Shown piece by piece: positions 6,056-23,470 of a DNA stretch of 64,000 nucleotides; within the stretch, counting starts at the first letter, position 1; each line of letters begins with the position of its first letter. The translations under genes were made by a program, and so were the position numbers. Under the pieces are notes generated by a model that saw nothing but the letters and a program-made list of their open reading frames with translations, did no database searches and had not been told where the DNA came from. The stretch spans positions 11,842,001-11,906,000 of the forward strand of contig OU452201.1 of NCBI GenBank assembly GCA_911728435.2. The letters run 5' to 3'. The DNA is from Apoderus coryli. Its lineage: Eukaryota > Arthropoda > Insecta > Coleoptera > Attelabidae.

Positions 6056-7870
6056 TAATAATAATAATAATAATAAAACGTTTATTAGCTCAGATAAAGA
6101 AACAATAATTAACAATAACTATAAACAATACCTTATACGATTACCTTACTGAACTAAAAGGCATTAGATGCAGCTTCTCAACACAGTTGAGTGCTGTTGT
6201 AGCCTAACATAATAATAGAACTATGAAAAATTGATAGAGCAATAATTAATTATATTAGATTAGATTATTTTGATGATATCTCCACTTAATAAATATCGAA
6301 TACATTTTATTTAAAACACACAATCTTATAACAACCCAAAAAACTAAAAAAAATTTTTTTTTTTTTACATCCTCCGCCGTTAGCTTTCCTCGTGATCCTG
6401 CCAAAAATTTGAATATCTTGGAACACCCGTGTTGAAATTATTTATTTTTTAACCTATTTTTGATTGTTTTTGCAAACGTCATCACCGAAGAAGAGAAATC
6501 TTTAACCTGTAGTTTATTTATTAATGATGCAGCCGTGTAAGAAAAAGACCGTTTGAAAATTTGTTTTTTATGAGCTGGAATCGTTAAAAGGTTCCTTCGC
6601 CTTATGTTTAAATTATGAACATCAGTTCGAAAAACTATTTTTTGATGGAGGTATGGAGGAGTGCGAAACTTTAAAATTTTATAATAAAAACTAGCCGCAT
6701 GAACCATACGTCGATTGTACATATTAAGCCAACACACTTCTTCTAGTTTATGAGATATTCTTTGTCTTCTCCTGATGCCATAAATCAATCTCAAACAGGA
6801 GTTCTGAACTTTCTGAATACGCCTAGTGTCCACACTGTCAAGACAGGGGCCATACACATTGTCACAGAAACCGAAATGCGACAATACGAGCATATCGCAA
6901 AGAGATGCTTTAACTTTCACACTTAAAAAATGTCTCTGCGAGTAAATTCTTTTCAAGGACCCATAGGCAATCCTTAGTTTTGTTGTGACATGCTCTTTGA
7001 ACCTCAACTTATTGTCCATGATCGGCCCTAAATTTTTTGAAAAGTTTTTAAATGGTATTTGTTCAGAATTGATCTTAATCGTAATATTATTCAGAATTTC
7101 ATCCCTTACGTTATTGTTGGAAAATAGAAGACATACGGTTTTTTTTGGATTCAATTTAAGCAAGTGGTTATCGGAGACTTCTAAAAGACCCTGTAGGTCC
7201 TCATTGATCTGCTCAGCAGCCGTATGCATGTCCGCTGGGCTAAAAGCCTTATAAATTTGTGTATCGTCAGCATACATATGATATTCAGAGTATTTCAGAT
7301 TTTGAACAAAGTTTGTCGTATACATTGTGTACAGAATCGGAGCAAGTATACTTCCTTGAGGGACCCCACTTTCAATTTTCAAACTATTAGACATATTGTT
7401 TTTAATATATACTCGTTGGCTTCTATTGTTTAAAAAGGATTTAATTAGGCTTGCAGCATCTGTGCTAAAACCAAAATATTGTAGCATTGAGATTAAAATC
7501 TTATGGTTGTTCATGTCAAATGCTTTTGTATAGTCAAGAAGAACCAGTATGGTTGCTTTATTTTCATCAAGAGAGCGAAATATATCATCCGTCACCTTGG
7601 ATAGTGCGGCCGCACAGCCGTAACCCTTTCTAAACCCTGATTGTAATGGACATATTAGCTTGTTAGTTTCTAAATAATCAACAATCTGCACCTCCATTAC
7701 CTTTTCTAATATTTTCGACAATGCCGGGAGTACAGAAACACACCGGACATCTCCAAATGTAGCTGGATTTGTCACCTTTGGTATCGGCGTAACTTTGGCT
7801 ACTGATATAAATTTTAACCCTGTGAAAAACAAAATCAACAAAAGACATAATCCTGTTTATCCTTCAAAAA
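6056..7870 (-). mobile_element. 5'-truncated Jockey/CR1-like LINE, copy A
   Basis: The element runs right to left: reverse-transcriptase frame 7841-6438, about 360 bp of 3' UTR, then AATAAACG and a (TTA)n tail at 6056-6077. The 5' end lies near 7850-7870 in an A-rich tract, so the endonuclease and ORF1 are missing. 5' truncation with an intact 3' tail is the normal outcome of target-primed reverse transcription. The same 3' signature occurs in copies D, E, F, G and the remnant at 5946. Confidence 0.8.
6438..7841 (-). CDS. reverse transcriptase, C-terminal part, LINE copy A
   Basis: 467 codons without a stop. Reverse-transcriptase motifs appear in order: PIPKV and VSVLPALSKILEKVM near residues 20-50, the SGFRKGYGC block near 70, motif A LLDYTKAFD (first catalytic Asp) near 105, motif B GVPQGSILAP near 165, and motif C YADDT (catalytic Asp pair) near 190, followed by thumb and C-terminal regions ending in KTIKNRLKNK and a stop. 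This matches Jockey/CR1-group LINEs that lack RNase H. The protein would copy LINE RNA at a nicked target in the nucleus. The annotated ATG is arbitrary: the true frame would begin upstream with the endonuclease, which is absent. All catalytic residues look intact, so the insertion is fairly young, though dead by truncation. Confidence 0.85.
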   Translation of the reverse strand: MLILFFTGLKFISVAKVTPIPKVTNPATFGDVRCVSVLPALSKILEKVMEVQIVDYLETNKLICPLQSGFRKGYGCAAALSKVTDDIFRSLDENKATILVLLDYTKAFDMNNHKILISMLQYFGFSTDAASLIKSFLNNRSQRVYIKNNMSNSLKIESGVPQGSILAPILYTMYTTNFVQNLKYSEYHMYADDTQIYKAFSPADMHTAAEQINEDLQGLLEVSDNHLLKLNPKKTVCLLFSNNNVRDEILNNITIKINSEQIPFKNFSKNLGPIMDNKLRFKEHVTTKLRIAYGSLKRIYSQRHFLSVKVKASLCDMLVLSHFGFCDNVYGPCLDSVDTRRIQKVQNSCLRLIYGIRRRQRISHKLEEVCWLNMYNRRMVHAASFYYKILKFRTPPYLHQKIVFRTDVHNLNIRRRNLLTIPAHKKQIFKRSFSYTAASLINKLQVKDFSSSVMTFAKTIKNRLKNK

Positions 7871-8028: not shown

Positions 8029-8870
8029 TCAAACAAATAGTAATCGATGTCTAAGTTTGCATTTAAATGAAAGCATAGGTAAGTCCTTTAACTCACCTGG
8101 GACTTGATTGTACATTGAGTATACATTGTAAGTGTATGACCTCTTAAATAATTCCGTCCTGTGCAGTGGAGCAGAAAGCAAGCCCTTATGTCTAAGATTT
8201 ACATTATGAATATCGGACCTAAATGTAATTTTATCATATAGGTAAGATGGATGCTTATGGATCAGTGAAAGAGACAAGAAGCATGCAGAAATCTTCTATC
8301 TTCCATCGACAACCAGCCCGCAGATTTCAATTTATGACTAATTCTTTCATATTTTCTGATACCGTACACATATCTAAAACACGATTTTTGAACACGCTGA
8401 GTTCGTTCACTATCACACCTCAGAAGACATGGACCATATATAACATCACAAAAATTAAAATTGCTCAACACCAAGGAATCCGTCAACTTAAGTTTGACAC
8501 ATTGCGACAATATATATCTGTGTGGATACAACATTTTTAACGCTGCATATCCTTTGTTTATACATGCAGAGATATGATTCGTAAAACGAAGTTCATTATC
8601 CAATAGCAAACCTAAATTTCTGGCCACACTACTGTATGTTAAAGACACATTATTAAGTGATAATTCGAGATTTTGTTCAATAAAATGTCTATCCTTTCCA
8701 AATAATAGTACTTTTGTCTTACTTGAATTAATATGTAGTTGATGTTTTTTTGACCAGGTGGCAATAGATCTGAGATCCTCATTAATACTATCTGAAGCCA
8801 TTACCAAATCATTATGATGAAACAAATACTTAAATTGACTATCGTCGGCATACATTCTTCTAATTCAGCA
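8029..8870 (-). pseudogene. LINE reverse transcriptase fragment, copy B (frameshifted)
   Basis: The fragment begins exactly at motif C (MYADDSQ, first codon near 8855) and runs through the thumb region (DNELRFTNHI, LVLSNFNFCDVIYGP, QRVQKSCFRYVYGIRK) to about 8262. After a frameshift near 8262-8277 the reading continues in another frame (SYLYDKITFRSDIHNVNLR ... SFKCKLRHRLLFV) to 8029. The two frames together are collinear with residues about 185-465 of copy A. Similarity is clear but amino-acid divergence is large, so this is an older or different subfamily. Everything upstream of the YADD box is missing by 5' truncation. Confidence 0.8.
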
Positions 8871-18810: not shown

Positions 18811-19153
18811 GAAAAACCCGAAGGCTTCATCTTCCTTTATACCAAACATAACTAATATATAACCTAACTTTAATGATGTACAAACAATAAAATAATATCG
18901 TTGATGGTCTTGACTTCTACTTGATGAAAATTCATTTTCAAGTTTTTGAAGAAAACAAGAAATGTTTTTAAATAATTTTACAAAATATGGTACATATGGC
19001 TTCTTCAGATAGCCACTGTGTTTAATAAAATAAGAGCCAAACATTTATTGTATCTATTCATTTTCTTTTTGTTTTATTTGGATTTTTCATTTTCATTCAA
19101 AATGGGTAGTGAACATTTTCATGAAGACAAAATACAAATGTTTAATATAATTA

Positions 19154-19275
19154 CACAGGCCAACACACATTTTGGTGCCTGCGATTTTTTAACTGTTCCT
19201 GAGTAATTTTTGGATGCAGAATGTAAAAAGGTTCTCAGATTTTGTCTATCAGATCTAGTTTTTGAGATTTTTTAA
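19154..19275. repeat. left TIR of the 19.15-21.57 kb element
   Basis: Imperfect inverted match to 21440-21565. Best blocks are the outer 12 bp (19154-19165), GGTGCC near 19175 and a 30-bp inner block ending near 19272. Substitutions and length differences occur in A/T-rich parts. Confidence 0.7.
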
Positions 19276-19366
19276 AAAATTGTGTATATAATTTACGTTA
19301 TAACTGTTATAATATATAATATTACTATTGACAGTTAAAAAAAACAAAGACACATGGATTTAAGTA

Positions 19367-19372
19367 TTTATT
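19367..19372 (-). promoter_or_regulatory. poly(A) signal of the 566-codon gene
   Basis: AATAAA on the minus strand, 33 nt downstream of the TAG stop codon at 19406-19408. Confidence 0.6.
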
Positions 19373-19405
19373 GCAAAAACTTAATTTACATAATTACATT
19401 AGTCA

Positions 19406-21106
19406 CTAATCACATAAAAATTTTCTTTTATACGATTTTCTAGAATGGAGTTTACTAGGGCAGTCTCGCTGAAGGCTCCAGCAGTAGTCCGCCATCATGT
19501 GGCTATCCCATCGTCCTTGATAACGATCTTCCATAGTTTTAATATCCTGGTGGAATCTTTCCCCCTGTTCTTCACTACAATCACCTAAGTTTTCTGGAAA
19601 ACGATCTAGGTGGCTGTGGAGGTAGTGAACTTTTATACTCATGTTACAGCCGAGAATATTAAAATTTGAAAGCATAGTTTCCACTAATTCTACGTAATTG
19701 TCTGCTTTATGATTGCCAAGAAAATTTTGTACTACTTGAACAAATGAACTCCAAGCGTTAGATTCAGTCTCGTTCATTGATGTGGTGAATTGTGGATCTT
19801 TAACAAGTTGCCTTATTTGAGGACCATCAAATATACCAGCTTTTAGTTTTTCCGTGCTAATGCCAGGAAATTTACGTGACAAATACCCAAAACAATTTCC
19901 ATCTCGATTTAAGGCCTTCACAAATTGCTTCATTAGGCCTAGCTTGATATGCAAGGGCGGAAGTAAGATTTTTTCTCTTGAAACCAAAGGTTCGTTGATC
20001 ACGTTTTGTATTCCTTGAATCATGACATCTCTTGAAGGCCAATTTTTGTTAACCCAGTGCTCATTTTTAGCTCTGCTGTCCCAAAGGCACAAAAAACAAG
20101 GATATTTTGTATAACCACTCTGCTGTCCAAGGAGGAAGTTAATCATTTTTAAATCAACACAAATTGACCACTGATGTTCTTCGTATTTAATTTTTCTCAA
20201 AACTAATGCTATTGTTTCATATTCTTCCTTCATGGTAGTAGAATGACCAATAGGAATTGAGCCATATTTGTTACCGTTATGTAAAAGAACACATTTTAAA
20301 CTACGTTTTGAACTGTCAATAAAAAGGCGCCAATCATCTGGAGTGTATTCAGGCAAACCCATTTTTTCTAAGAGCCCTTTTATATTGTTACAGAATACCA
20401 AGTCATTTTCCTGAGTGAAAAAAGGCAGCAGATCCTTATCTCTTTTACGATAAAATGTAATATTAGTACCTCGACAAAGTAGATTTTTTTCTTTTAATCT
20501 GGATGCAAGTAATTCAGCGGATTCCTTTGAGAGATTCAGGTCTCTTATAAGATCGTTTAGTTCTTCTTGATTGAAACACTGCGGAGTTGCTAAATCTGCT
20601 TCAAAATCGCTGTCGTTTTCTGATTGAATTCTTTTAACTTCGTCAGACGTTGATGTTTCTGTATCATCTTCTGTCAGTTTGGGTAGACTGCTGAATGATG
20701 GAACGGGTATTTCTTCCGAATGCACTACAGGCCTTCTTGCAGAATCTAGATCAGGATATGTCCATTTGTGTCTATTGTTTCTATTTATGCCTTTAATATT
20801 AACGAGACAAAAATAGCAGTCGTCATGATGGTTCCGCGGTTCTCTCCAAACCATTGGTACACCAAACTTTAGGCACTTCCTCTTTCCAGTTGTCCACTGT
20901 CGCAAATGTTCAACACATGTTTTACATATGAAATGTGGGGCCCAAGATTTATCTTGATCTCCTAAATGAACGCCAAAATAGGCAAGATAAGCTCTTTTCA
21001 CAAAGTCAGAAATCCTTTTTCTGCTCTCTTTCAAAGTGTATTCACCACACACATAACAAAAAACATCGGGATGATTTACACAGGTACGTCTGCTTGTGGA
21101 TGCCAT
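19406..21106 (-). CDS. 566-aa zinc-binding, DDE-like transposase candidate
   Basis: An uninterrupted, intronless frame. The start context is AAACAATGG. The N-terminus has C17-x2-C20 and C61-x2-C64, the spacing of an insect ZAD-like zinc-binding domain, followed by C97-x2-C100. Residues 150-185 are acidic and low-complexity. The C-terminal half contains FIDSSKRS (D264), CVDLKMI (D318), CFLC (C337/C340), PPLHIKLG (H386) and EEQGERFHQD (E512/E513, H519). A D...D...C-x2-C...H...E series in an RNase H-like alternation of strands is what several cut-and-paste transposases show, but assigning D264, D318 and E513 as catalytic is my inference. I recall similar uncharacterised proteins as multi-copy in arthropod and other animal genomes. 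Flanking TIRs argue for a mobile gene. The alternative is a domesticated host gene. Confidence 0.75.
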   Translation of the reverse strand: MASTSRRTCVNHPDVFCYVCGEYTLKESRKRISDFVKRAYLAYFGVHLGDQDKSWAPHFICKTCVEHLRQWTTGKRKCLKFGVPMVWREPRNHHDDCYFCLVNIKGINRNNRHKWTYPDLDSARRPVVHSEEIPVPSFSSLPKLTEDDTETSTSDEVKRIQSENDSDFEADLATPQCFNQEELNDLIRDLNLSKESAELLASRLKEKNLLCRGTNITFYRKRDKDLLPFFTQENDLVFCNNIKGLLEKMGLPEYTPDDWRLFIDSSKRSLKCVLLHNGNKYGSIPIGHSTTMKEEYETIALVLRKIKYEEHQWSICVDLKMINFLLGQQSGYTKYPCFLCLWDSRAKNEHWVNKNWPSRDVMIQGIQNVINEPLVSREKILLPPLHIKLGLMKQFVKALNRDGNCFGYLSRKFPGISTEKLKAGIFDGPQIRQLVKDPQFTTSMNETESNAWSSFVQVVQNFLGNHKADNYVELVETMLSNFNILGCNMSIKVHYLHSHLDRFPENLGDCSEEQGERFHQDIKTMEDRYQGRWDSHMMADYCWSLQRDCPSKLHSRKSYKRKFLCD

Positions 21107-21439
21107 TGTTTCAGTTTAGTGTCTTGATACTACAAAACGACCAAAATTTACACAAAATGATAGCACAACTTTACTTGGGAAAACTCAGTAATATACTAAA
21201 TCAAGTACAGCCAAGCAGGTATAGAAGGATCGGGTCATAGGCAATTACAGGTATAAAAGTAAGTAAGAGCATTGTATTGAGTAGTTCCTAGTATAGGAAC
21301 ATTGGGTCAGGGACAATTCCAGGTATCCATTTGGCTAATTAGATTCTGGGAAATTCCTATTTTGACGATTAAGTACATATTTATCTCTTTATTTGTTGTC
21401 CTTTATCAGAAAAAAATATATCATTTAACCTGTAACGTG

Positions 21440-21565
21440 TATCTCAAAAACTAGAGCTGATAGAAAAAATCTGGTGGCATTTTTGGAATCAGCACATTAA
21501 AAACATCTAAAATCAGATGTTAGATTTCTGGCACCAAATTTTTTTTTTCATTTTGTTGGCCTGTG
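21440..21565. repeat. right TIR of the 19.15-21.57 kb element
   Basis: Inverted counterpart of 19154-19275. It carries an A/T-tract insertion near 21541-21552 and an extra hairpin-like ACATCTAAAATCAGATGT segment near 21503 that the left arm lacks. Confidence 0.7.
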
Positions 21566-21784
21566 TTATCATTGTCTTCTTTTAGATACCTATACTAAAT
21601 ATATAATATTGTTTTTTTTAATAAATGTAGTCTACCTTTTTAAATATAGATAAATTTAATTATAATATAACATTTAATCATCTAATATATAATTAAATAT
21701 ATTATGTGATAAGATGTACGTTTTTAGTATATGTTAAAATTAAACTAAAAACATACATAACACGTTTATTGATATGCGCATGTG

Positions 21785-21945: not shown

Positions 21946-23010
21946 TGTTCAACTAAGATTTCGTTTAATGGAAAAAACGTGGACGAATTTACACAAGCAA
22001 ATTTGCAAATATTTTTTCGTTGTTGATATTGAAAATACTTCTGAATAAAGACGTGTGGTTGACAAACAAATATATCCGTGAATCTCAATCGGTAGGACGT
22101 CTTTTTTCTGAAGGAAACGTCTGAGTAAAGTTGAAGCATATACAATCTTGACGAAATATTTTAAATTAGTATCTGTGGTCGAATGTATAATCGATTAATA
22201 CAACCTGATATAGTTTAAAATACGAAAAAGAAATTATAGCATTACATTTTTTAATTGAATTTAAAAATAACATCAAAGTTTCTATCTTTATATTTTTGGC
22301 TCGTATACGGATTATAAGCTTTTGATTTACAAAGCTTAAATCCTCATATCTATATCCTATTTGTCCAGTGTATATATTATATATACATATGTAGAAGAGA
22401 AACTAGACATGTGTAAAGTCAGTTAAAAGAATATATATGTATATTAAAAGTTTCCCTAACTTTTTGAAATATACTTTGAATTTATTTTCTATGCAGGATT
22501 CCATAGCCTTATTTTTAGTAACATATTATTATGTTTTATTTAACAATTTACAAGTGTAGTTGGAAAACATATACAATATATATATCAAAATTAAACACTG
22601 TCTAGTGAAAATTCTTAATAAGATTTTAACATATAAAAAAGAAATCACAAGTTCACAAGAGCACCTGCCACTTGCCCATGCCTCAATTCAATTGAGGCTC
22701 TGCTAATTTAGACAACATCTTCATGCCATAAAATTGCCTTTTCTTGTCTCTGGCGTTTGAGTTAGGTCTGTGAGAGTAGTGTTCTTGGTTTTGGTTCTCA
22801 TAGTTGTAGAAAAGGTCCATATTTTTGTTTTTGAGAATAGAAAAAAATCAGGTTTGTCGCCCCAAAACTTTCCCGACGAGATATTATCAAAAATATATGA
22901 CCTGCGTAACGAAACAGAATTTTAATAATAATTATTATTATAATAGTATTATTTTTAATAAACTAACGTAACAAACTGACAAAAATTAGAAAAAAAAAGT
23001 ATTGTCAGAG
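21946..23010. other. AT-rich stretch without a recognisable gene
   Basis: It contains a TA-rich palindromic run near 22370-22390 and AT trinucleotide runs near 22923-22950. No coding similarity. Confidence 0.5.
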
Positions 23011-23016
23011 CTGGGA

Positions 23017-23092
23017 TTCTAACCTAATAACCTTCCGCATGCGAAGCAAATGCGAATACTCTATCAATGACGCCACAAACCTCTCTTTAAAA
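23017..23092 (-). mobile_element. tRNA-like SINE head or tRNA pseudogene
   Basis: On the minus strand TGGCGTCATTGATAGAGTA resembles a pol III A box and D arm, and GGTTAGAATCC differs by one base from the B box GGTTCGAATCC. Between them lies TTCGCAT...GCATGCGGAAGG, an anticodon-arm-like segment. The 3' side GCTCTGAC has no complementary 5' acceptor strand, so it is not a functional tRNA. It is most likely the head of a tRNA-derived SINE. Confidence 0.45.
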
Positions 23093-23100
23093 ATATTATA

Positions 23101-23470
23101 ATTGTAATAAGATAGGTTCCAACTACCTAACTGATGAAATTTTAAACGCAACTTTCTCGAGAATTATGGGGGCAAATATGAAAAGTGACCTATCGCTATA
23201 AAGCAGATAAAAAAATGCTTTAAAATGAGGTATCACTCGACCCCTACTTTTATTTGAAAATATACCAAAATTTAGTTCAATAAAGCGTTTGGGCGCTATC
23301 GTGGAAGAATACATACTGACACACATACACCCACTCACACAGACAGACAGACCTCCATCTGGAAATGTAGCATCTTAATCGTCTCAGGGAACATCAAAAT
23401 GGTTATATCCGTCTTTATCTCAATTTTTTTAGCGCTTTCACAATACTTCCCTGTGCGGGAAAGTAATAAA
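23101..23470. repeat. dispersed repeat with a GTCTCAGG...ATATCTG tail
   Basis: A block around 23372-23435 (ATCTTAATCGTCTCAGGGAA, then CATCAAAATGGTTATATC) recurs at 37284-37345 (GTCTTAGTCGTCTCAGGGGA, then CTTCAAAATAGTTATATC). It includes a (GACA)n stretch at 23338-23349. It lies beside the tRNA-like head, so both may be parts of one SINE family. Confidence 0.5.

Follow-up and report, generated by a model that had tools for sequence, protein, structure and literature searches.

The DNA analysed here (the window) is a 64,000-nucleotide stretch of the Apoderus coryli genome (contig OU452201.1, positions 11,842,001 to 11,906,000), which carries at 19154..21565 a 2412-bp element with a transposase gene on the − strand. 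The gene is a single open reading frame (ORF) for 566 amino acids (19406..21106, −), it has no internal stop codon, its start lies in the context AACAATGG and it is followed by AATAAA, a polyadenylation signal-like site (19367..19372, −), as had been claimed in the original prediction. No second ATG-started ORF of at least 80 codons was found within the element. TTA stands directly outside both ends, as also predicted, preceded by A on the left (19151..19153) and followed by T on the right (21566..21568; both are strandless flank letters). The inverted repeats proposed to span about 120 bp proved real but discontinuous: a perfect 12-bp end, CACAGGCCAACA at 19154..19165 (+) with its inverted copy at 21554..21565 (−), is separated by a variable stretch from a 33-bp inner block (19236..19268, +; 21441..21473, −), whose two copies are identical at 31/33 positions and which is likely the binding site of the transposase. 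The local alignment of the two ends scored 56, while 300 randomised pairs gave a mean of 20.7 (SD 3.0) and a maximum of 38. We are highly confident that this is a full-length, very recently inserted and apparently autonomous DNA transposon of the Chapaev3 group, belonging to the CACTA-Mirage-Chapaev-Transib (CMCT) clade.

To find further copies, the A. coryli genome (428 Mb, 129 contigs) was searched, the candidate counts being lower bounds. The left 127 bp yielded 423 first-look candidates, and all 40 that were scored matched over 127 bases without a difference. A search with 30 bases of the left end, allowing up to 2 mismatches, found 418 places (201 on one strand and 217 on the other), and the reversed pattern used as a control found none. 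The transposase protein gave 491 candidates, 77 of which were scored and were 100% identical over 566 residues in every case. The check proposed for a DNA transposon, multiple copies with shared ends, thus returned hundreds of them, and this part of the prediction was borne out. Sixty-one copies were examined: the window copy, the 40 top-scoring hits of the left 127 bp, which make the sample lean young, and 20 more taken from the first 100 listed of the 418 places, with the 30-base left end free of mismatches. One of the latter (L084) had no right end inside the fetched stretch and was not included when flanks were counted. The 12-mer was present at both termini in 60 of the 61 copies (window copy, 40/40 and 19/20), the element boundaries are exact, and the 566-aa frame was kept in 53/61 copies (35/41 and 18/20).

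The flanks of the first set (n = 41, with 41 distinct left flanks) were TAA/TAA in 20 copies, TTA/TTA in 16 and unequal or shifted in 5; in the second set (19 with a right end) the counts were 13, 5 and 1 (shifted), respectively. The two flanks were therefore the same trinucleotide, TTA or TAA, in 54 of the 60 copies with both ends, and in 40/41 copies A preceded and T followed the duplication, so the target is ATWAT. One paralogous empty site was found. The copy L020 sits inside a dispersed repeat, an uninterrupted relative of which lies at window 22841-23184 (−). When the L020 flanks were joined with one TAA, they aligned to this relative gap-free across the junction with a score of 380, whereas keeping both duplications gave 377, and the left and right flanks alone gave 264 and 121. 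The suggested search for empty sites thereby obtained a supportive but not sharp answer, and the same flank-joining test gave no clean empty site for L022 and L036. The flanks of L020 and L036 share the dispersed repeat of window 22841-23184, and those of L022 share its neighbouring part.

The copies have diverged very little. Thirty-one of the 41 are 2412 bp long and differ from their majority sequence at 1.8 positions on average (range 0–5; 0.14% pairwise), and the window copy equals the majority sequence with 0 differences. The 37 variable sites among these 31 copies comprise 10 non-coding, 6 synonymous and 21 amino acid-changing ones, the coding changes being read as a sign of little selection since insertion. 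The insect substitution rate is near 3e-9 per site and year, at which the copies, in a sample that leans young, would be a few hundred thousand years old or less. The element was inserted very recently, is apparently autonomous and may be active at present. Two other copies, L042 and L044, represent the same 1384-bp form, in which about 1.0 kb is deleted with a common junction after base 270. They are identical over all 1384 bases and lie between different flanks, each bordered by TTA left and right. This points to mobilization of the deleted form by the enzyme of intact copies; it is likely a non-autonomous derivative mobilized in trans.

The original prediction regarded the protein, which carries the string EEQGERFHQD, as a DDE transposase, and this was supported. 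The predicted fold is a RAG1/Transib-type RNase H fold, in agreement with the RNase H-like core that had been anticipated, and on this model the transposase is structurally akin to RAG1, the recombinase of antibody genes. The structural alignments to RAG1 and Transib (HzTransib) involve just 10–16% sequence identity, and the fold comparison is the sole search that links the protein to RAG1. The predicted catalytic residues are D264 (20315..20317, −), D318 (20153..20155, −) and E513 (19568..19570, −). For the last acid, E512 and E513 had both been proposed; among 157 aligned sequences (156 database relatives and the window protein), position 513 is E in all, while position 512 varies (79 D, 77 E, 1 V), which decides for E513. 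Downstream of D318 the protein has C337/C340 (C(2)C), L385-H386 (LH) and H494/H499 (H(4)H). Transib and RAG1 also differ from this element: the target duplication of Transib is 5 bp, that observed here is 3 bp, and the element is without a second ORF of at least 80 codons.

These features are those published for Chapaev3. In PMC4079192 the TWA duplication is described between A and T in all Chapaev3 elements examined, together with CAC/GTG ends and the motifs C(2)C, LH and H(4)H. The A. coryli element has the TWA duplication (54/60 copies) between A and T (40/41 copies), the termini 5′-CAC ... GTG-3′ and C337-C340, L385-H386 and H494-H499 alongside D264, D318 and E513, and so resembles Merrow, Garfield and Conan. 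According to the same source, full-length Merrow and Garfield elements measure 2.3–2.45 kb, with transposases of 556–562 aa encoded in two exons, while most other Chapaev3 genes appear to be single-exon; the present element (2412 bp, 566 aa, one exon) is close to the former in size and like the latter in gene structure, a likeness in these descriptive features. For Chapaev3 transposases an N-terminal complex zinc finger, the "Chapa" domain, is described (PMC4411706); the zinc-type domain near the N-terminus of our transposase could be its counterpart. Members of the CMCT clade (EnSpm, Mirage, Chapaev, Transib and others) have C(2)C and H(3-4)H between the second D and the E, CA..TG ends in most cases and 2–5 bp duplications (PMC12730594), and the zinc motifs, ends and duplication length seen here agree with all of these. 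The ends, the duplications, the intact gene, the copy number, the youth of the copies, the predicted fold and the motifs are all shown by this analysis.

An undescribed superfamily of the same clade, apart from Chapaev3 and sharing its target site and motifs by chance, could be imagined because the Pfam transposase models were unmatched, no relative listed has an informative name, and the strings EEQGERFHQD and GERFHQD are absent from the text of the papers searched (alignments in figures are not searchable). Nevertheless, the TWA between A and T, the CAC/GTG ends, the C(2)C/LH/H(4)H motifs and a length near that of Merrow and Garfield all coincide with what PMC4079192 gives for Chapaev3, and the hosts (beetles, Hydra, frog, reptiles and bat) fit a group reported across animals. 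We therefore dropped this explanation as very improbable, and with it the suggestion of a possibly undescribed family, so far as this meant a novel type of element: the one seen here is of an ordinary kind, Chapaev3, in an unusually clean state. The 3-bp duplication could also recall PIF/Harbinger elements, whose duplication is typically TWA and which use a Harbinger-type nuclease plus a Myb-like protein. Canonical members indeed make 3-bp duplications (PMC12730594), but the element has no second ATG-started ORF of the stated length, and, with no Harbinger protein compared directly, the predicted RAG1-type fold and the motifs make this origin scarcely credible. Even less plausible, to a negligible degree, is a domesticated single-copy host gene surrounded by chance repeats; the long intact reading frame would suit it, but 418 left ends and 61 copies at different places, with a distinct left flank for each of the first 41, speak against it, and the copy number by itself is enough to refute it. 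Spongebob, a CACTA element of Hydra and insects, was also rejected on its CCC ends and 2-bp duplication (PMC4298943).

Some observations weigh against the Chapaev3 assignment. The 566-aa frame was lost in 8/61 copies and 6/60 had unequal or shifted flanks. The repeat DNA around the L020 empty site is AT-rich, its alignment has gaps elsewhere, and one duplication is preferred to two by only 3 score units (380 versus 377). Searching PDB sequences with the single protein and with the family profile gave no useful match, the profile finding no transposase, and the Pfam transposase models were matched neither by the window protein nor by the 86 family members, one of which hit RAG1_imp_bd with an E of 0.011. 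Finally, the placement in Chapaev3 comes from a comparison with published features.

As a Chapaev3 element it would move as follows. The 566-aa transposase would bind both ends, with the inner 33-bp block as the probable site, and pair them. Its RNase H-type active site (D264-D318-E513), assisted by a C(2)C/H(4)H zinc site like that of RAG1 and Transib, would cut beside CAC/GTG. The excised element would then be joined to target DNA at ATWAT, where a stagger of 3 bp would give the TWA duplication.

Altogether 2283 database sequences match the transposase. From 120 listed of these, an 80% identity filter selected 85 proteins, which together with the window protein make up an alignment (A1). Among the matches listed, the named relatives come from the beetles Pyrocoelia, Callosobruchus and Onthophagus and from Hydra, Rhineura, Erythrolamprus, Ranitomeya and the bat Saccopteryx, a broad and patchy spread among animals like that of Chapaev3; in these listings (120 per search), all entries that bear a name are called uncharacterized, hypothetical or unnamed. 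The Hydra and Rhineura proteins are 77% identical, two Pyrocoelia proteins 62%. These identities, independent of host kinship, fit the horizontal transfer reported for Chapaev3. No relatives were found in viral or prokaryote contigs; one relative (P0133) is assigned in the database to a bacterium (Pseudomonadota) whose genome was assembled from a metagenome, and is probably animal DNA in a bacterial bin.

Other features were noted in the window and the genome. Two open frames with reverse transcriptase-like sequence and the motif YADD (6438-7856 and 8262-8864, both −), judged by eye, look like LINE remnants. In the dispersed repeat of 22841-23184, the L020 copy contains GGTTCAAATCCC, which we take to resemble a tRNA-type B box, and the repeat may be a tRNA-derived SINE; ARAGORN found no tRNA genes in the window. 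THAP-domain sequences are abundant in the genome (150 scored of 2274 candidates), and since many matches have equal scores and equal stops, this suggests that further THAP-bearing transposon families are present.

The N-terminal zinc domain (residues 17-75; C17, C20, C61, C64; 20882..21058, −) looks related to ZAD, the domain of a large insect gene-regulator family. Against ZAD (zf-AD, PF07776) hhalign gave a probability of 92 with low controls, the four cysteines are in register, the D..P..[IV]C..C pattern is common to both, and all four rows of a second-look fold comparison were ZAD. The register of the first cysteine pair rests on 4/26 host ZAD pieces spanning the whole domain. The ZAD resemblance that had been proposed holds in these respects but stays below the Pfam curated cut-off, the window protein scoring 17.7 bits against 28; 16/86 family members reached E 0.01 or better (best 3.5e-5). 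Unlike the ZAD of insect C2H2 transcription factors, the domain is joined to a transposase, not to C2H2 fingers, and it stands beside a further H93/C97/C100 motif. We consider it an even proposition that the Chapaev3 N-terminal zinc domain and the insect ZAD are homologous, in which case ZAD may derive from a captured Chapaev-type domain, or the capture may have run in reverse.

A function and an element structure are now given to a protein family of 2283 matches whose window member lies below every Pfam cut-off, and the element, nearly uniform across its copies and apparently autonomous, is a member of a RAG1-related clade well suited to studying how such transposases work. If the link to ZAD is true, the most abundant insect transcription-factor class may owe its defining domain to a Chapaev-type transposase, and the element would offer a direct test of the origin of the most expanded insect transcription-factor domain.
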